Assembly: GCA_002254845.1 (NCBI GenBank)
Contig: NKPT01000010.1
Location: 1-64,000 of the forward strand
Direction of reading: 5' to 3'
Origin: Chloracidobacterium sp. CP2_5A
GTDB lineage: Bacteria > Acidobacteriota > Blastocatellia > Chloracidobacteriales > Chloracidobacteriaceae
Length of the DNA: 64,000 nucleotides
Under the pieces are notes generated by a model. It was given only the letters and a program-made list of their open reading frames with translations, made no database searches and was not told the DNA's origin. Of this stretch, positions 2 to 8,110 are shown one piece after another. The position numbers were made by a program, and so were the translations under genes. Each line of letters begins with the position of its first letter. Within the stretch, counting starts at the first letter, position 1.

Positions 2-2935
2 CGTTGGATAATCTGTTGCTTGACGATGATCGCGTTGACCTATTCCCTGACTGGCTATGCTCAGAGCGGCTCGACGACGGGGGCGATTACGGGGCGGGTC
101 CGCGACAGCACGGGGGCGGTGATTGCCGGCACGGAAATCGTTTGTCTCCAGGCGGCAACCGGAACGGAACGCTCGACCCGGTCCCGCGAGGATGGGACGT
201 ATGAGTTTCTGAACCTGCCGCCCGGCGACTATGAGGTTCGAGCGATGGCCGCCGGCTTTGAGGATAAGCGGCAAGTTATTCGCCTGTCGCTTGGGACAAC
301 GGCGCTGGTGGTCATCACGCTCGTCACCGCGGGCGCGACCGACGTCATCGAGGTGGTCGCTGACACCCGAAACGCCGCTGAATCAGCGACCAATGTGAGC
401 CAGCGGGAAATTCCGACGCTCCCCATCAATCGGCGCGACTTCCTACAGTTTGCCATTACGGCTGCCCGAACCGTCCCGGACAACCTGCCTGACCAAGGCG
501 CGACCGCGACTTCGGGGCTATCCTTCAATGCCCAGTCGCCGCGCCTCAACAATCTGACGATTGACGGCCTGGACAACAACGACGCGACTTCCGGGAGCAT
601 TCGCTCGACGTTCTCGCAGGAAGCCGTACGCGAGTTTCAGGTGGTTTCAGACGGCTACTCCGCGGAGTTTGGGCGGGCGCTAGGCGGCGTCATCAACATC
701 ATCACCAAGTCGGGCGACAACGAGTTTCACGGGTCGCTGTTTGGCTTCTTTCGTAACGCCGCCTTGAGCGCGCGCGAGTCGCTGACGCCGAGCAAGCCGC
801 CTTTTGAGCAGTATCAGTATGGCCTCACCGCCGGCGGCCCGCTGCGCCGCAATCGGGCTTTTTTCTTCGTGACTGGCGAGCGGCTTAACATCAAGCAGAA
901 TAGCGTGGTCACGATTTCCGACGCGGTACGGGCGGCGGCGCTCCGAAACGGGTTTCAGTTCGACGTCGGCAGCATTCCGTTTAGCACTGGCGGCTCGACG
1001 GCGCTCATCCGGGGCGACTGGCAAGCGACCCCGGAAGATAATCTGACGGTTCGCTACAACTACGGCGGGCAGGTGAACACGGCCTTTGAGCCATTCGGGG
1101 GGCTGACGGCCAGCACCTTTACCGGCGAGCAGCGCCTGACCGACCACAGCTTGGCCATCAACAACGCCTTTGTGAGCCAAAGCGCGCTTGTGGTTGAGAG
1201 TCGCTTCCTTTACAGCACTCGCTTACAAGACATTAGCGCTGCTAATCCAGGGCCGCGCATTGCCATCAACGCGCCGGAAGGACAGGTCATCTTTGGAAAA
1301 TCGCTGGTCTTGCCACAGTTTCGAGATACCCAAACCTATCAGTTTTTCACAGCGGTCGGGCTGGCGCGCGGTCGGCATCAGATGAAATTCGGCGGCGACA
1401 TCCTGCGAGTTAACTCCAGCCAGCGCCAACCGGCCAGCGAAGGTGGACAAGCTAATTTCTCCACAGTCAGCCTTGTGGCGCTGGGCGGCCCGGCCGGATC
1501 GCCATCGCTTTCGGCGCTCCAGGCCTTTGATCCCGCGCTGCGGACGACCGAGCAGCGGGCGGCGCTGGCGTTCATCGGGGCGAATTTGCCCAATCGCTAC
1601 CCTGGCTTTCCGGCGCTACCGCTCGACCTTCTACCGATTACCAACGACTATCGGCAGGGATTTCTAGAGCCGAAGCCGACGCCGATTCCGCAAACCTCGC
1701 TGAGCTTATTTGCTCTGGATGACTTTTCGCTATGCCAAGACCTCAAGCTCAGTCTCGGAATTCGCTATGACCTGACGCGCGCCCGCAGCGCGCCGCCCAA
1801 CAATGGGCTGTTTTCGCCGCGCGTCGCGCTGGTCTGGCAGCCGCTGCCGAGGCTGACGGCGCGAAGCGGCTATGGGATATTTGCCGCCAGCAACCTAACC
1901 TTTCCCATCTTCACGATTGTGCCATTGACGCGGCGCACGCTCGTTTTGCCGTTTCCGTTCAGCATCCTGCCGCTGACGCAGCCAAATCGGCAGCTTCCTC
2001 CGTCTGGGGAGTTCCCGTTCGGGATTCAGCCGGTGCCGCAGCTTGGCCTCGAGTTTCAGTTCGCCCAACAGCTGCCGCCGAGCTATACCCAGCAGGCAAG
2101 CCTGAGCCTGGAGTCGCGGGTCGGCGGCGCGCTGTTTTCGGCAGTGTACAACTACGTTCGCGGCAACCGGATTCTATCGCTTCGCTCCATCAACCCAATT
2201 GTACGTCCCGGCCTCGATCCGCTTGACAGCCTCATCAACGGTCGCCGTGACCCGCGACGCGGGACGGTGAATGAGTACGCCGCCGCGTATGACAGCTACT
2301 ACCACGGTCTCACGCTGGGCGCGGAGCGGCGGGCCGGGCGCTTCACGGCGCGCGCAAGCTATACGCTCTCAAAGGCCATTGATAACTATGTGGATTTCCG
2401 CACCTCGCTGCAGGAGTTTGCCGAGCCGCTTGACCTTCGCGGCGAGCGGGCGCTTTCCATTCAGGACGCGCGGCACCGCCTAGTGATATCTGGCGTGTGG
2501 AGCCTGGATTACTCAAAAAATCCGCTGCTGCGGGACTACGCGCTATCCTACATCATCACGGCGGTTTCGGGGCGTCCGTGGAATCTGCTGGCCGGCGCGG
2601 ACTTGAACCGGAACGGCGACGCCAACGACCGGCCGGCCGGCATTGGGCGCAATGCCGGCGTCACGCCGGCGTTTTACAACGTTGACCTTCGCTTCGCGCG
2701 ACGCTTCGTCAACCGCGAGCGTCTCAAGATCGAGGGCATTTTTGAGGCTTTCAACCTCTTCAATCGAACCAACGTCCGCGAGTTTGGGCGCACTTTCCCG
2801 CCTGTGAATCCGCCGCTCAATACGCAGTTCAACCTGCCGCCGCTGCGCGACGGGAGGTTCATCGTGACGCCCGACCGTTTTCGGCGAGCCTTTCCGCCGC
2901 GTCAGTTCCAGCTTGGCTTTCGGGTGACGTTTTAG
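2..2935 (+). CDS. TonB-dependent receptor, Oar-like (5' end cut by window)
   Basis: Outer-membrane beta-barrel protein of the Oar/TonB-dependent receptor type abundant in Acidobacteriota; presumed to import a bulky substrate, which cannot be told from sequence. The frame is open to the left edge, and the first visible residues (ICCLTMIALTYSLTGYAQS) look like the end of a signal peptide, so the real start is probably just upstream; TTG at 20 is merely the first possible start inside the window. Counting from 20: carboxypeptidase-regulatory-like beta-sandwich at about residues 18-105 (GRVRDSTGA to VRAMAAGFE), plug-like region at about 110-230 (QREIPTLPINRRDF, TIDGLDNND), then a long barrel ending in the aromatic terminus GFRVTF. 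About 970 residues fits the family. Family certain, substrate unknown. Confidence 0.9.
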   Translation, partial: RWIICCLTMIALTYSLTGYAQSGSTTGAITGRVRDSTGAVIAGTEIVCLQAATGTERSTRSREDGTYEFLNLPPGDYEVRAMAAGFEDKRQVIRLSLGTTALVVITLVTAGATDVIEVVADTRNAAESATNVSQREIPTLPINRRDFLQFAITAARTVPDNLPDQGATATSGLSFNAQSPRLNNLTIDGLDNNDATSGSIRSTFSQEAVREFQVVSDGYSAEFGRALGGVINIITKSGDNEFHGSLFGFFRNAALSARESLTPSKPPFEQYQYGLTAGGPLRRNRAFFFVTGERLNIKQNSVVTISDAVRAAALRNGFQFDVGSIPFSTGGSTALIRGDWQATPEDNLTVRYNYGGQVNTAFEPFGGLTASTFTGEQRLTDHSLAINNAFVSQSALVVESRFLYSTRLQDISAANPGPRIAINAPEGQVIFGKSLVLPQFRDTQTYQFFTAVGLARGRHQMKFGGDILRVNSSQRQPASEGGQANFSTVSLVALGGPAGSPSLSALQAFDPALRTTEQRAALAFIGANLPNRYPGFPALPLDLLPITNDYRQGFLEPKPTPIPQTSLSLFALDDFSLCQDLKLSLGIRYDLTRARSAPPNNGLFSPRVALVWQPLPRLTARSGYGIFAASNLTFPIFTIVPLTRRTLVLPFPFSILPLTQPNRQLPPSGEFPFGIQPVPQLGLEFQFAQQLPPSYTQQASLSLESRVGGALFSAVYNYVRGNRILSLRSINPIVRPGLDPLDSLINGRRDPRRGTVNEYAAAYDSYYHGLTLGAERRAGRFTARASYTLSKAIDNYVDFRTSLQEFAEPLDLRGERALSIQDARHRLVISGVWSLDYSKNPLLRDYALSYIITAVSGRPWNLLAGADLNRNGDANDRPAGIGRNAGVTPAFYNVDLRFARRFVNRERLKIEGIFEAFNLFNRTNVREFGRTFPPVNPPLNTQFNLPPLRDGRFIVTPDRFRRAFPPRQFQLGFRVTF

Positions 2936-3084
2936 CGGGCGCTTCGCGCGGGTGTCGCGCAGGCATCGCCAGACCGCGGCGACCGGCGATAGCCGCGGGA
3001 GCGGCTTCCCGGCGCTATTGCGCGAGCGTCCAGCGGCGCCAAGGGCTTGATTTTTGGATGTGAAAAGCATTCCAATCGCCGCGT

Positions 3085-3150
3085 ATGAAAACTCACGTCG
3101 CCGCGGATGAGCAAGCGACCGCGCGCGCGACCGCGCTTGGGCGGCTATGA
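3085..3150 (+). other. possible 21-codon leader ORF overlapping the nuoJ start
   Basis: An ATG at 3085 opens a frame of 21 codons whose TGA (3148-3150) overlaps the nuoJ ATG (3147) as ATGA. nuoJ lacks a clear Shine-Dalgarno of its own (only GGGCGG upstream), so coupling to this short frame is possible. The peptide resembles no leader I know. Weakly supported. Confidence 0.25.
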
Positions 3151-3644
3151 CCTTTCAGCAACTTCTATTCATCGGCTTCGCGACGCTGGTCTTGAGCGGG
3201 GCTATATCGGTAGTCCTTCTGCGTAACCCGCTCTACGGAGCTTTTGCGCTGATCACGTCCTTTGTCGGGCTGTCGGCTCTCTACGTCCTGATGGGCGCGC
3301 AGTTTATCGGCGCGGCGCAGATTGTCGTCTATGCCGGGGCGATCATGATGCTGTTCGTCTTCGTCATCATGCTGCTCAACGTGCGCGCCGACGAGGAGCG
3401 CGCGCCGCGCCATCGTTTCCTCGCTTGGCTGGCCGCGCCGCTCGCGCTGTTGTTTAGCTTGCAAGTGTGGCTCGCCGTATCGGGCCTGAAAGGCGACCGC
3501 GCGCCGTCCGGCGAGACCGGGACGGTCGAGCGAGTTGGCAAAAACCTTATGACGCGCTACCTGCTGCCGTTCGAGCTCACCTCGGTGTTGATTTTGCTGG
3601 CGGTTGTCGGCGCGCTGCATCTGGCGAAGCGCGAAAAGGAGTGA
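3147..3644 (+). CDS. nuoJ: NADH-quinone oxidoreductase subunit J
   Basis: Membrane subunit J of complex I, part of the proton-pumping arm in the inner membrane. The 165-residue protein starts MTFQQLLFIGFATLVLSG and has the expected helices, including the conserved stretch LRNPLYGAFALI followed by QFIGAAQIVVYAGAIMMLF, which is the signature of NuoJ (the pi-bulge helix region). The C-terminal helix is followed by a short basic tail. It heads a same-strand run J-[unknown]-K-L-M; the next gene begins 4 bases after its stop. A cytosolic loop of about 40 residues (GDRAPSGETGTVERVG) before the last helix is typical of the family. Very secure call. Confidence 0.96.
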   Translation: MTFQQLLFIGFATLVLSGAISVVLLRNPLYGAFALITSFVGLSALYVLMGAQFIGAAQIVVYAGAIMMLFVFVIMLLNVRADEERAPRHRFLAWLAAPLALLFSLQVWLAVSGLKGDRAPSGETGTVERVGKNLMTRYLLPFELTSVLILLAVVGALHLAKREKE

Positions 3645-3648
3645 CGCT

Positions 3649-4356
3649 ATGGAGCGCGCTCGGCGGATTTGGCTGTGCTTATTGTTCCTCGCGCTGTTCC
3701 TCGCGCTGTTCCTCGCGCTGCCGCTGCCGCCCGCGCCAGTCGGCGCCCTCGCGCAAACCGAGGAGCGAGCGGAGTATCTGATGGTGGGCTACGCGCCCAA
3801 GGGGCGCATTCCCGGCGTAGCGGTCTATCGGAACGACGGGGGAACGCTGCGCGGCAAGTGGACCAATGGCCAGGCGCAGGGGCGCATCCTGACGGAAACG
3901 GCCGTGCCGCAGTCGCTCACTGACGGCATCGAGGGCACGTACGACACAACCGGCGTGAATCCCGACGGACGAGCGTATCGCGGCAAGCTTGGCATTCGCA
4001 AAATCGGCGATAAGGTGTACGCCCTCGCCTGGACGAACGGCGATACGGGCATCGGCCTTCTTGCCGGACAGGCGCTGGTCGTTGGCTATGGCGAGCAGGC
4101 GGGCGTGGCGCTCTACGCCATCAAGCCCGACGGCAGCGGCGACGGCGGGTGGACGACAGTCGCCGCCGCTGGCGGCATCGGGCGCGAGCAGTTCTACGGC
4201 GGCGGCAGCCTGACCGCAACGCACCGCGCGAAGGGCGCGCTGCCCAACGGCGCTCCGTACGAGGCGACCGTGACCATCACGAAGGAGGGAAACGCTTACC
4301 GTCTGGCGTGGTCAACCGGCGAAGTCGGCGTCGGACTGTTGGTCACGGCCAGGTAG
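3649..4356 (+). CDS. secreted repeat protein of unknown function between nuoJ and nuoK
   Basis: I do not recognise this 235-residue protein. It has a signal peptide (MERARRIWLCLLF, then three FLAL-type repeats, likely cleaved near GALAQ|TEE), so the mature part should be periplasmic or secreted. The mature region carries at least two related beta-rich units, about residues 85-145 (GTYDTTGVNPDGRAYRG ... YALAWTNGDTGIGLL) and 180-235 (GGSLTATHRAKGALPNG ... YRLAWSTGEVGVGLL), sharing the pattern Y-x-L-A-W-[TS]-[NT]-G-[DE]-x-G-[IV]-G-L-L. ATG 3649 is preferred over an upstream in-frame TTG because it begins the signal peptide and follows the nuoJ stop by 4 bases. It is co-oriented within the nuo run, with only 13 bases to nuoK, so it is very probably co-transcribed with complex I genes. 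Confidence 0.85.
   Translation: MERARRIWLCLLFLALFLALFLALPLPPAPVGALAQTEERAEYLMVGYAPKGRIPGVAVYRNDGGTLRGKWTNGQAQGRILTETAVPQSLTDGIEGTYDTTGVNPDGRAYRGKLGIRKIGDKVYALAWTNGDTGIGLLAGQALVVGYGEQAGVALYAIKPDGSGDGGWTTVAAAGGIGREQFYGGGSLTATHRAKGALPNGAPYEATVTITKEGNAYRLAWSTGEVGVGLLVTAR
3685..3720 (+). repeat. 12-bp tandem repeat x3 inside a signal peptide
   Basis: Three perfect copies of ttcctcgcgctg encode repeated FLAL in the hydrophobic core of the signal peptide of the protein between nuoJ and nuoK. The unit is a multiple of three, so copy-number change would lengthen or shorten the core without a frameshift. Confidence 0.95.
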
Positions 4357-4369
4357 CGAGGCGGCGGCT

Positions 4370-4672
4370 ATGGTTCCGTTAGCGTGGTATCTCATGCTCA
4401 GCGCAGCGCTCTTCGCCATCGGCGCGGTTGGGGTATTTGTCAAAAGCAACATCATTTCGACGCTACTGTGCCTGGAACTGATGCTCAACGCGGCGAATTT
4501 GGCGTTTGTGGCGTTTTCGGCCTTTCAGGGGACGATTGAGGGACAACTCTTTGTCATCCTGGTGATGGCTGTCGCGGCGGCTGAGGCCGGCGTTGGGCTG
4601 GCCATCGTCATTGCGCTATTTCGCAATCGGGAAACGCTCGATGTGGACGAGTCGAGCCTATTGAAATTTTGA
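4370..4672 (+). CDS. nuoK: NADH-quinone oxidoreductase subunit K
   Basis: Complex I membrane subunit K, one of the small Mrp-like proton-channel subunits. At 100 residues it has the standard length and three transmembrane helices. The two buried glutamates needed for proton transfer are visible: one in CLELMLNAANLAF (helix 2) and one in AVAAAEAGVGLAIV (helix 3). ATG 4370 follows the preceding secreted-protein gene by 13 bases. The stop TGA at 4670-4672 lies just before nuoL, whose ATG is at 4717. Secure. Confidence 0.97.
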   Translation: MVPLAWYLMLSAALFAIGAVGVFVKSNIISTLLCLELMLNAANLAFVAFSAFQGTIEGQLFVILVMAVAAAEAGVGLAIVIALFRNRETLDVDESSLLKF

Positions 4673-4716
4673 CCTGCGCCCCGTCCGCGCCGGCGGGCAG
4701 GGTTGTCAACACCGGC

Positions 4717-6651
4717 ATGCTAACCCTGATGATTGTCGCGCCGCTCATCGGCGCGCTCGTTTTGACCTTCGCCGGCCGTCGCCTTGGCGAGCGCTTGACA
4801 GGCGTGGTCGCCTGCTTGTCGGTCGCCGTCGCGGCCGGATGCGCGTTCGCGGCGTTCTTTCTCAAGCTGCCGCCCGCCGCGCCCGACGCGGAAGGCGTTC
4901 GGCGCGTCACTGAGCGACTGGGGACGTGGTTCAGCGTCGGGAGCTTCAGCGCCGACTTCGGGCTTGTCCTTGATCCGCTGTCGGGCGTGATGGCGCTCTT
5001 TATCACGGGCGTCGGGCTGCTGATCCACATCTTCGCTACCGGCTACATGCACGGCGACGACGGCTACGGGCGATTTTTCGCCGCCCTAAACCTGTTTGTC
5101 GCCGCGATGCTGACGCTTGTGTTGGCGGACAACCTGTTGCTGATGTTCGTCGGCTGGGAAGGCGTTGGCGTTTGCTCCTACTTGCTCATCGGCCACTACT
5201 TCACGCGCGACGAAGCGGCGGACGCGGCGCGCAAGGCGTTCGTCTATAACCGCATCGGCGACGTCGGCATCGTGCTGGGGACCCTGTTGCTCTTCACGCA
5301 AGCGGGGAGCGTCAACTTCGCGGACATCAGTCGCTGGGCGGCGCAGCAGCCGGTCGAGGCGCTTGGCTGGGCGGCTGTCGGCGCGGGCGGGCTGACGACG
5401 GTCGGGCTGTTGTTGCTGCTAGGCGCGACGGGCAAAAGCGCGCAGATTCCGCTCTTCGTCTGGCTGCCGGACGCCATGGCCGGCCCGACGCCCGTTTCAG
5501 CGCTCATTCACGCCGCGACGATGGTCACGGCGGGCGTTTATCTGCTTGTCCGGTTGAACGTCGTGTTCCTGCATGCGCCGACGGCGTTGGCGGTCACGGC
5601 GGCGGTCGGCGCGGCGACGGCGCTTCTCGCCGCCACGATTGCCCTGGGGCAGGACGATATCAAGAAGGTTCTGGCCTACTCGACGGTTTCGCAGCTCGGC
5701 TTGATGGTCATGGCGTGCGGCGCGGGGGCGTTCACCGCTGGGCTGTTTCACGTTACGACGCACGCCTTCTTCAAGGCGCTGCTGTTCCTGGGCGCGGGTA
5801 GCGTCATCCACGCGCTGCACGAGGAGCAAAGCCTGCGGCGGATGGGCGGGCTGAAGAAGTTTATGCCGGCGACCTACTGGACCATGACCGTCGGCTGGCT
5901 GGCGATTGCCGGCTTTCCTCCGCTTTCCGGCTTTTTCAGCAAGGATGAAATCCTGTTTGAAACGTTCGCGTCCGCCGCGCTGCCGGGCGGTCTGGCGAAG
6001 ACCCTGTGGGCGGTCGGCTTGCTGACTTCGTTTTTGACAGCGTTTTACATGACGCGCCTGATGGTTCTGACGTTTCACGGCGAGCCGCGCGAGGCCGTCG
6101 CCCACGGACAGCCGCGCGAGTCGCCGTTGGTCATGACGGCGCCGCTGGTCGCGCTGGCGCTACTGTCGGCTTTTGGCGGGGCGCTGGGCCTGCCGGAGGC
6201 GTTTGGCCTGCATCCGTGGATGCGCGAGTTTCTGTCGCCGCTGGTGGTCGTGCCATCCGAACTCGCCCACAAGACCGCTTCGCATACGCTGGAACTCATC
6301 CTGATGGGCGTCTCGACCGGCGTCGCGCTGTCCGGCGTCGCGGCCGGATGGTTTTTCTTTGGGCGACAGCCGCTGTGGGAAGCCCCGCGCGTTTTGCAGG
6401 CAAAGTGCTGGGTGGACGAAGCCTACGAAGCGGCGATTGCTCGTCCGCTCATGCGGCTTGCCGAACGCGGCTTGTGGATGGGACTGGATGCATCGGTTGT
6501 GGATGGCTTGGTCAGCGGCGTTGGGCGCAGCCTGGCCGGCCTTGGCGCGACGCTGCGCGAAATGCAGTCCGGTTACGCCCGCGGCTACGTCGTGATGATT
6601 TTTATCGCGGCGCTATTGATTCTGAGCTATTTCGTTTTTGGTCAAGGATAA
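4717..6651 (+). CDS. nuoL: NADH-quinone oxidoreductase subunit L
   Basis: Largest antiporter-like subunit of the complex I membrane arm. The product is 644 residues with about 14-16 helices. Family signatures visible: FVGWEGVGVCSYLLIGHYF (helix 5 region with the channel glutamate), LGATGKSAQIPLFVWLPDAMAGPTPVSALIHAATMV in outline (the Lys and the conserved PTPVSALIHAATMV core), and DDIKKVLAYSTVSQLGLM. The C-terminal part provides the lateral helix and final membrane helix (GYVVMIFIAALLILSYF). A TTG at 4669 is in frame, but ATG 4717 (MLTLMIVAPLIGAL) gives the family's normal N-terminus. The 3' end is followed after 4 bases by nuoM (GTG 6656). Confidence 0.96.
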   Translation: MLTLMIVAPLIGALVLTFAGRRLGERLTGVVACLSVAVAAGCAFAAFFLKLPPAAPDAEGVRRVTERLGTWFSVGSFSADFGLVLDPLSGVMALFITGVGLLIHIFATGYMHGDDGYGRFFAALNLFVAAMLTLVLADNLLLMFVGWEGVGVCSYLLIGHYFTRDEAADAARKAFVYNRIGDVGIVLGTLLLFTQAGSVNFADISRWAAQQPVEALGWAAVGAGGLTTVGLLLLLGATGKSAQIPLFVWLPDAMAGPTPVSALIHAATMVTAGVYLLVRLNVVFLHAPTALAVTAAVGAATALLAATIALGQDDIKKVLAYSTVSQLGLMVMACGAGAFTAGLFHVTTHAFFKALLFLGAGSVIHALHEEQSLRRMGGLKKFMPATYWTMTVGWLAIAGFPPLSGFFSKDEILFETFASAALPGGLAKTLWAVGLLTSFLTAFYMTRLMVLTFHGEPREAVAHGQPRESPLVMTAPLVALALLSAFGGALGLPEAFGLHPWMREFLSPLVVVPSELAHKTASHTLELILMGVSTGVALSGVAAGWFFFGRQPLWEAPRVLQAKCWVDEAYEAAIARPLMRLAERGLWMGLDASVVDGLVSGVGRSLAGLGATLREMQSGYARGYVVMIFIAALLILSYFVFGQG

Positions 6652-6655
6652 GCGC

Positions 6656-8110
6656 GTGACATTGCTTGATTCCGGCTTCCTGCTCGTCTGGCTCGTAGCG
6701 CTGCCGCTCATTGGCGCGCTGGCTTTGGTTGTTCTGTCGGCGGTTTCGCTTGAACTGGGCCGGCGATATGCCCTAACGGTGGCGCTCGTCGTCGCCCTGC
6801 TCGCCTTCGGGCTGTCGTTGCGCCTAATTTCGCAGCGCGCGAATCCGGCGCTGACGGTGAACGCGCCGTGGATTCCGACGCTGGGCGCGAATGTTCACTT
6901 GGCTATTGACGGCCTCAGCCTGTGGCTCGTGTTGCTGACGACGCTGCTGACGCCGTTGGCGATGCTGGCGAGCGCGGCGATTGTCGCGCGCCGCCACGTT
7001 TATTTTCTGCTGCTCCTGCTGTTTGAAAGCGGGCTGATCGGGGTGTTTCTGGCGCGCGACTTGGTGACGTTTTACGTCTTCTGGGAAGTCGTCCTCATCC
7101 CGGCCTACTTCTTGATCGGCATGTGGGGCGGGGAAAACCGTCTGGCGGCGGTGACGAAGTTCTTCCTCTACACCGTCGCGGGCAGTCTGCTGATGCTGGC
7201 CGCCATCATCGGGCTATATGTCGGTCACGGCGCGGCGACCGGGCGCTACACCTTTGACTTAGAGACCCTCATCGCCGCTCGCCATGTCATTCCGGTCGAG
7301 ACGCGCCAGTGGTGCTTTTGGGGCTTTGCGGCGGCGTTTTTCGTCAAGATCCCGCTTTTCCCGCTCCATACCTGGCAGGCTGACACATACGCCGAAGCCC
7401 CGGCGCCGGTCGCCGCGCTCCTGTCGGGCGCGATGTCGAAAATGGGGACGTACGCCTTGGTTCGGCTTGGCGTCGGGCTCTTTCCCGATATTGCCCGCGA
7501 GTGGGCGACGCTGATCCTGACGCTGTCCGTCATCAGCATTCTGCATGGCGCGCTGGCGGCGATGGCTCAAGTCGACTTGAAGCGATTACTCGCTTATTCG
7601 TCGCTGAGCCACTTGGGCTTTGTGACGCTGGGCGTGTTTTCGTTCACGGCGTATGGCGTCGAAGGCGCCATGTTTCACATGGCGGCGCATGGCGTGACGA
7701 CCGGCGCGCTCTTCTTGCTCGTGGCGATGCTGGAGTCTCGTCGACAAACGACAGCGCTAGCGGAGTTCGGAGGCTTGGCGAGCGGTATGCCGCGCTTTGC
7801 CTTCGCGATGGTCGTCGCTAGTCTGTCCTCGGCCGGCGTGCCGCTGACCAACGGCTTCATTGGCGAGTTTCTAGCGCTGCTGGGCGCCTTTACGACGGCG
7901 CGGTGGTTTGCCGTCGCGGCGGCTTGCGGGATGATTTTATCGGCTGTCTATCTCTTGACAGCCGTCCGGCGGACGCTTTTCGGCCCTAGCCCGTCGCTGT
8001 TTGAAGCGCCGGATATGGACTGGCGCGAAACGCTGGCCGTCGCGCCGCTGGTTGTCTTGATGCTGGCGATGGGCGTCGCGCCGCAGCTTTTCCTCCAATC
8101 AACTCGCTAA
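6656..8110 (+). CDS. nuoM: NADH-quinone oxidoreductase subunit M
   Basis: Second antiporter-like subunit of complex I. About 484 residues with conserved stretches: FYVFWEVVLIPAYFLIGMWGG (channel Glu), FFVKIPLFPLHTWQADTYAEAP in outline (the FLVKxPLxPxHTWLPDAHxEAP motif with Lys), and QVDLKRLLAYSSLSHLGFV. I chose GTG 6656 because AAGGAT lies 8-9 bases upstream and MTLLDSGFLLVWLVALPLIGAL is a normal start; an in-frame TTG at 6638 overlaps nuoL. Note D in WQADTYAEAP where H is usual in WLPDAHVEAP. nuoN, which normally follows, is not here: the next 205 bases hold no gene. Confidence 0.95.
   Translation: MTLLDSGFLLVWLVALPLIGALALVVLSAVSLELGRRYALTVALVVALLAFGLSLRLISQRANPALTVNAPWIPTLGANVHLAIDGLSLWLVLLTTLLTPLAMLASAAIVARRHVYFLLLLLFESGLIGVFLARDLVTFYVFWEVVLIPAYFLIGMWGGENRLAAVTKFFLYTVAGSLLMLAAIIGLYVGHGAATGRYTFDLETLIAARHVIPVETRQWCFWGFAAAFFVKIPLFPLHTWQADTYAEAPAPVAALLSGAMSKMGTYALVRLGVGLFPDIAREWATLILTLSVISILHGALAAMAQVDLKRLLAYSSLSHLGFVTLGVFSFTAYGVEGAMFHMAAHGVTTGALFLLVAMLESRRQTTALAEFGGLASGMPRFAFAMVVASLSSAGVPLTNGFIGEFLALLGAFTTARWFAVAAACGMILSAVYLLTAVRRTLFGPSPSLFEAPDMDWRETLAVAPLVVLMLAMGVAPQLFLQSTR

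Follow-up and report, generated by a model that had tools for sequence, protein, structure and literature searches.

A lineage-specific gene for a predicted exported double-barrel protein is inserted between nuoJ and nuoK in phototrophic Acidobacteriota

Few gene neighborhoods of bacterial complex I are as stable as the nuoJ-nuoK pair. In the window analyzed here (the whole stretch of 64,000 nucleotides from contig NKPT01000010.1 of Chloracidobacterium sp. CP2_5A), the pair is separated by a gene, designated X, and comparison across genomes indicates that this is a real, conserved, and lineage-specific insertion whose proposed function is plausible. The position of X, its conservation, the clade that carries it, the purifying selection on it, its domain relationship, and its permutation can be stated firmly. 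As for its role, we lean, with somewhat less than even confidence, toward X being a lineage-specific, exported, soluble double barrel that was inserted once and most likely acts on complex I of cluster 1 from the periplasmic side. The insertion would have happened in the last shared ancestor of the Chloracidobacterium-type phototrophic Acidobacteriota, and its place between nuoJ and nuoK would have led to X being made from one mRNA with two membrane-arm subunits. The product, predicted to be secreted by Sec and to fold into two eight-stranded barrels, would then dock on the periplasmic surface near NuoJ, NuoK, NuoL, and NuoM as an assembly or stability factor or as an extra subunit. Confined to a phototrophic clade and to one of two complex I clusters, X is a concrete candidate for a periplasmic complex I accessory protein. 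No description of an insert between nuoJ and nuoK was found in the searched literature, most subscription papers lying outside its scope.

A first reading of the sequence alone had pointed to a signal-peptide-type gene separated from the preceding nuoJ by 4 bases and from the following nuoK by 13, on the same strand, and the coordinates, read directly, confirm this arrangement (Table 1). The product has a hydrophobic N-terminus followed by ∼199 residues of β-rich sequence. The start of nuoK is preceded by GAGG, and SD-like sequences thus stand before both X and nuoK. A sequence scan of positions 2900-4800 found no promoter-like site, and terminator-like sites in the same interval were at background (3 found versus 2.4 expected). 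In the source genome nuoJ-X-nuoK-nuoL-nuoM form an isolated block, with nuoH and nuoN elsewhere. An assembly artefact or an accident of reading frame is ruled out by the identical arrangement in seven genomes together with purifying selection.

Table 1. Features of the nuoJ-X-nuoK-nuoL-nuoM block, in window coordinates
Feature	Position	Strand	Basis
nuoJ (complex I cluster 1), stop included	3147..3644	+	PF00499 E 1.4e-40; NCBIfam NuoJ models
AAGGAG, RBS-like for X, within the 3' end of nuoJ and 7 bases ahead of the start of X	3636..3641	+	sequence reading
Gene X, predicted exported, circularly permuted LIC10280-like double β-barrel protein, 235 aa	3649..4356	+	
Signal peptide of X, approximately residues 1-36, cleavage near ALA-Q	3649..3756	+	by eye
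12-base tandem repeat TGTTCCTCGCGC x3.2 in the signal-peptide core	3683..3720	+	sequence
Second half of LIC10280-like unit, predicted strands b5-b8	3769..3918	+	own unit HMM; strands from AlphaFold2 model
One full LIC10280-like unit (b1-b8), first YxLAW motif at 4018-4062	3928..4197	+	NF050085 positions 1-80 at 3928-4164; own HMM 2-83
First half of LIC10280-like unit (b1-b4), second YxLAW motif at 4297-4341	4210..4344	+	NF050085 positions 3-37 at 4216-4320; own HMM 2-46
nuoK	4370..4672	+	PF00420 E 1e-28
nuoL	4717..6651	+	NF005141 / TIGR01974 over cut-off; start 4717 from orthologue alignment, mechanical ORF from 4669
nuoM, final nuo gene of the block, no nuoN after it	6638..8110	+	TIGR01972 over cut-off

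The survey of nuoJ-nuoK spacing proposed in the sequence-only reading was run on 30 of 39 genomes, the other nine having given no cluster-1 nuoK locus. An X-sized gap was present in seven of the 30 (700-1011 bp, each with X), and in the 23 genomes without X the gap ranged from -1 to 211 bp. Matches to X at E ≤ 0.001 were found in 12 of the 39 relatives, five of which (G011, G015, G019, G031, and G035) hold distant homologues away from nuo. The gene itself occurs in six of the seven genomes of the genus and in one (G008) of three genomes from other genera of the family, with 80-82% identity to X in the five other genus genomes and 50% in G008, at the same position in each. The remaining genus genome (G002, 85% complete) has no X; since its whole nuoJKLM block is missing and only the second nuoK copy was seen, this absence is uninformative. 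In G008, X lies 204 bp from nuoJ and ∼84 bp from nuoK, so tight coupling is not universal. That relatives might lack X, or carry it away from nuo, was the outcome named beforehand as counting against a link, and the result is divided: close relatives keep X between nuoJ and nuoK at all seven assembled clade loci (7/7, two genera), but the two more distant members of the family, G007 and G009, are without it, and the wider domain relatives are unlinked to nuo.

In a tree built from concatenated NuoJ, NuoK, and NuoL sequences of 29 genomes (G030, locus L031, was omitted, its NuoL being partial), the seven X-bearers form a single clade with 100% bootstrap support beside G007 and G009, and X therefore most simply entered once. 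The FMO antenna protein (PF02327) was found in eight of the 10 family genomes (G008 and the seven genus genomes), and none of 14 control genomes had it. Seven of these eight FMO-bearing genomes have X, the eighth being G002, and the two family genomes without FMO also lack X; by this distribution the X clade corresponds to the Chloracidobacterium-type phototrophs. Both the sister group (G007 and G009) and the other relatives examined run complex I without X, and none of the non-clade loci inspected showed an independent second origin of the nuo linkage, which is confined to one clade. Because all co-occurrence stems from one gain in one clade, the conserved place is effectively one event. Two of the X-bearers correspond to public records CALGZC010000033.1, a Blastocatellia MAG, and JAAFHI010000307.1. 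The latter is titled 'Actinomycetota bacterium', its contig name says Acidobacteria, and its genes are acidobacterial; the record (our locus L085) is probably a mislabeled MAG.

The history of the operon bears on whether this place is meaningful. Genes in relatives were named by comparison with the window genes, by PF00146 for nuoH, and by a NuoN search. In G009 and G007, nuoH, J, K, L, M, and N are consecutive, with a nuoG-like ORF (recognized by eye) upstream and no X, and in G008 the order H-J-X-K-L is found on a short contig. Within the genus the operon has been fragmented, yet X stayed between nuoJ and nuoK. In G001, nuoH (C1:1996371-1997333, at 1.996 Mb) is ∼376 kb from the J-X-K-L-M block at 1.61-1.62 Mb, and nuoN (C1:180707-182167, at 0.181 Mb) is more than 1.2 Mb from it; in the source genome, cluster-1 nuoH (C27:83282-84244) and nuoN (C58:34542-36002) likewise lie away from the block. 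By eye, no nuo genes were recognized adjoining nuoH in the stretches of these two genomes. The argument that X keeps an operon position, and that this suggests co-expression, gains support from conservation of the place despite operon break-up, co-transcription being the step that we infer. The best internal control is a second complex I cluster in the genus, which in all five genomes checked has nuoJ and nuoK 18-48 bp apart and lacks X; the X gene thus accompanies one of two complex I enzymes rather than nuoJK pairs in general. A tight operon may stay intact simply because disruption is costly, which would count against reading a role from position.

X is under purifying selection and is less constrained than its neighbors. 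Pairwise comparison of six genus genomes puts dN/dS (omega) for X at 0.047-0.163, based on 13 of the 15 pairs because dS is saturated in the other two; the corresponding figures are 0-0.108 for nuoJ and 0-0.059 for nuoK (15 pairs each). In the six pairs that each gene forms with G008, where synonymous sites are almost saturated, omega lies at 0.26-0.56 for X, compared with 0.18-0.41 for nuoJ and 0.06-0.08 for nuoK. The non-synonymous rate of X is ∼2-3 times that of nuoJ, and its excess over nuoK is greater still. These rates, together with the single gain, favor an explanation that we regard as nearly as likely as an accessory role: X could be a passenger, a periplasmic or envelope binding protein whose job is unrelated to complex I, which arrived in one insertion and was kept through constitutive expression of the operon and the rarity of clean removal. 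Harder to reconcile with a passenger are the retention of X inside nuoJ/nuoK in two genera and despite the break-up of the operon, and, within the genus, its strong constraint and its short spacing on both sides.

Export of X is predicted from its N-terminus, where what looks by eye like a signal peptide is seen in an alignment of seven X orthologues. All six X proteins inspected lack a lipobox and have mature parts without cysteine. Sec would be the putative route of X to the periplasm. The 12-base repeat in the signal peptide of the window copy is perfect and encodes LFLA units. It lengthens the signal-peptide core, and the closest X orthologue is ∼8 residues shorter there.

The YxLAW units described from the sequence alone are indeed present twice (YALAWTNGDTGIGLL and YRLAWSTGEVGVGLL), although these 'repeats' turn out to be the visible part of a domain of ∼85-100 residues that occurs in X as a half, a full, and another half unit. 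X matches the NCBIfam model NF050085 (LIC10280 family; an exception-level model of 85 positions with a cut-off of 100 bits) at E 5e-20 and 71.6 bits in two stretches (model positions 1-80 and 3-37), and a recognizable 85-position unit is present. The whole-protein cut-off is reached neither by X nor by three X orthologues (69.7-73.4 bits), nor by four canonical relatives (82.5-88.5 bits). By this profile evidence X carries a homologous LIC10280 domain and is a distant relative, not to be filed as a family member. Neither Pfam nor PHROGs gave a match for X. The lack of a PHROGs match, and of any relative in viral contigs by pattern scan, led us to reject a phage or plasmid origin for the gene; its plasmid matches were two weak ones in Shinella, covering 37-45% of the query at ∼34-35% identity.

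A unit HMM of our own, built from the units of non-nuo relatives and with E-values taken from a four-sequence search, matches X at model positions 57-92 (residues 51-86), followed by 2-83 and 2-46; for the G008 orthologue the matched positions are 56-95, 2-89, and 1-47. For the first half-unit, the match is weak in X, with a c-E of 0.012, whereas the G008 orthologue gives a clear one at 1.3e-7. The unit order is thus full-full in the relatives versus half-full-half in X, and when aligned by eye the C-terminal stretch of the relatives, for which the end of X has no counterpart, is similar to the N-terminus of X. Judged from this order, X is circularly permuted by half a unit with respect to its relatives, a clean natural example of this kind of rearrangement. 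The two-unit lipoproteins of Blastocatellia (L009, L010, L012, L013, and L086-L090) have the same unit and, like X, 16 predicted strands, with 33-37% identity over the shared part; they differ in their full-full order, in mostly having a lipobox, in having cysteine in their units, and in their unrelated neighbors. A cysteine within the first 75 residues was found in 10 of 11 relatives, and a lipobox-like pattern, loosely defined, in nine of the 11. One Blastocatellia locus (L010, in G031) has two LIC10280-like two-unit genes in tandem, at 1066-1839 and 1874-2614. In the source genome no second clear member of the domain family was found; a match on C185 (E 0.026, 41 residues) was dismissed as signal-like low-complexity sequence.

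The Leptospira LIC10280 family shares unit homology with X, which differs in its permuted half-units, in the absence of a lipobox and of cysteine in the mature protein, and in its place within nuo. LIC10280 itself is tabulated as a 'fibronectin binding protein' with a predicted outer-membrane location in the available part of one source (PMC5348505), and the domain homology could be taken to make X an outer-membrane or cell-surface adhesin. We consider this very improbable: the LIC10280 entry, in the part of the source available, consists of annotation and prediction, X is below the family cut-off and has lost the lipobox and cysteines of its relatives, and there is no reason for an adhesin to lie in nuo.

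Across Acidobacteriota the domain is patchy, with NF050085 matches in 25 of 396 genomes, none over the cut-off and mostly lipoproteins, a distribution that again favors a passenger. Among 30 such loci inspected, nuo genes were found within 1.5 kb at four, all in the genus, and were absent at the other 26, as they were at eight non-clade loci inspected over the same distance. As the neighbors of these relatives are unrelated genes, the family shows no general connection with respiration. A role in complex I is weakened by this, by the single origin of X, by its faster evolution than the nuo genes, and by the looser spacing in G008. An accessory role is argued for by the place kept through operon break-up, the specificity for one of two clusters, the constraint on the sequence, and the predicted export. 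Of the options offered by the sequence-only reading, a periplasmic assembly or accessory factor is plausible as far as sequence can indicate, and a passenger remains a serious rival.

Structure prediction, also suggested in the sequence-only reading, was run on X and on a canonical relative. For mature X modeled with AlphaFold2 using eight sequences, the mean pLDDT was 91.5 and the pTM 0.87, with 16 strands that we read as two eight-stranded barrels. VIA alignments of the model to small eight-stranded barrels cover ∼90 residues, either in the range 16-114 or spanning 4-197, and include the OprF barrel (Z 11.2, rmsd 2.2, 93 aligned) and designed barrels (Z 10.1-10.7); a fold missing from the VIA lists is no evidence of its absence. 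One barrel would be nearly contiguous (∼16-114), and the other would comprise residues ∼115-198 and the first strand, an assignment deduced from the aligned ranges and the strand lists. A half-unit permutation keeps a two-barrel protein closed, which may explain why it was tolerated. Foldseek searches of the X model against PDB and BFVD gave no match at E ≤ 0.001, all E-values being above 0.01, and in sequence searches no PDB chain matched X or its orthologue profile better than E 0.12.

The model of the canonical relative L086 also has 16 strands, at a mean pLDDT of only 76.5. Its best VIA matches were Cap15 (Z 14.6) and residues 169-272 of 1jju (Z 14.5, rmsd 1.7 Å, 96 aligned, 23% identity), with aligned L086 residues spanning both chain ends; other barrel matches were designed DFHBI-binding barrels and retinoid/fatty-acid binding proteins. 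The 1jju region resembling L086 is domain II of the quinohemoprotein amine dehydrogenase alpha subunit (PF14930; 1jju, 1jmx), an enzyme whose heme and enzyme domains X lacks. Sub-threshold matches to PF14930 were obtained independently for six of 10 relatives tested, among them the G008 X orthologue (E 0.0017-0.024). The gathering cut-off of 27 bits was not reached, the best score being 19.0 bits, in a relative, and X itself gave no match. Because of the L086-1jju match and these independent hits, the LIC10280-like unit may be a distant cousin of the PF14930 domain, a lead rather than a membership.

Since several of these small closed eight-stranded barrels bind ligands (Cap15, the DFHBI-binding designs, and the retinoid/fatty-acid binding proteins are among the best model matches), X might instead carry a periplasmic hydrophobic ligand, such as a quinone, carotenoid, or lipid, in one or both barrels for the photosynthetic-respiratory chain, its place in nuo reflecting shared regulation. 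The occurrence of X only in FMO-bearing genomes fits this idea, which we nonetheless hold to be improbable: a common fold shows no function, no Foldseek match of X has an E-value of 0.01 or lower, and phototrophy and X share one clade, so that their correlation amounts to one event.

Returning to an action on complex I, the most specific form of this proposal is that X is a supernumerary periplasmic subunit, a permuted barrel from an envelope lipoprotein family that was recruited when the ancestor took up phototrophy and that tunes or couples the enzyme. We consider this form unlikely. If it were true, such tuning might serve, for instance, reversed or cyclic electron flow next to the type I reaction center, and X would give a bacterial complex I an extrinsic barrel at its periplasmic surface. 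The NDUFA9-, NDUFA12-, NDUFS4-, and NDUFS6-like accessory subunits lie on the matrix or cytoplasmic side. X is predicted to be periplasmic, and family scans gave no sequence relation between it and these subunits. The proposed kind of role is nevertheless alike, that of a lineage-restricted extra subunit, and Paracoccus and Mycobacterium are reported to carry accessory subunits in their complex I (PMC12361115). PsbO, the extrinsic eight-stranded barrel of photosystem II, illustrates how a soluble barrel on the lumenal side can stabilize a bioenergetic membrane complex; chain O of photosystem II aligns with the X model at Z 6.5-8.5, values common for unrelated barrels, and no sequence relation of X to PsbO was found. 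X was also considered as a subunit of the CabRC reaction center and excluded, whether as PscZ or as another chain, by size, fold, and membrane side together with the PDB sequence searches, PscZ (Cabther_A1475) being described in the available part of PMC9751088 as a 60-residue two-helix cytoplasmic protein.

The idea that X replaces periplasmic loops of complex I subunits found no clear support in a comparison of 18 genomes, in which the G008 NuoM row went unused (it had picked up NuoL, and the contig ends) and the NuoJ start of G014 is probably truncated. The TM4-TM5 loop of NuoJ has 30 residues with X versus 30-39 without, and the TM14-15 loop of NuoL has 20-23 versus 22-65, ranges that overlap between the groups. 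Elsewhere in NuoL, the TM13-TM14 loop is His/Asp/Gly-rich and 24-49 residues long in 14 of the 14 X-lacking Blastocatellia sampled, and is His-poor and 16-18 residues long in four of four X-bearing genomes (approximately residues 452-467 of the window NuoL). By topology we take this loop to be cytoplasmic, and the His-rich form, lost in the phototrophic clade, is possibly metal-binding. In NuoM, a 4-residue deletion near residue 214 is present in three of three genus genomes, as compared to 14 of 14 others without it.
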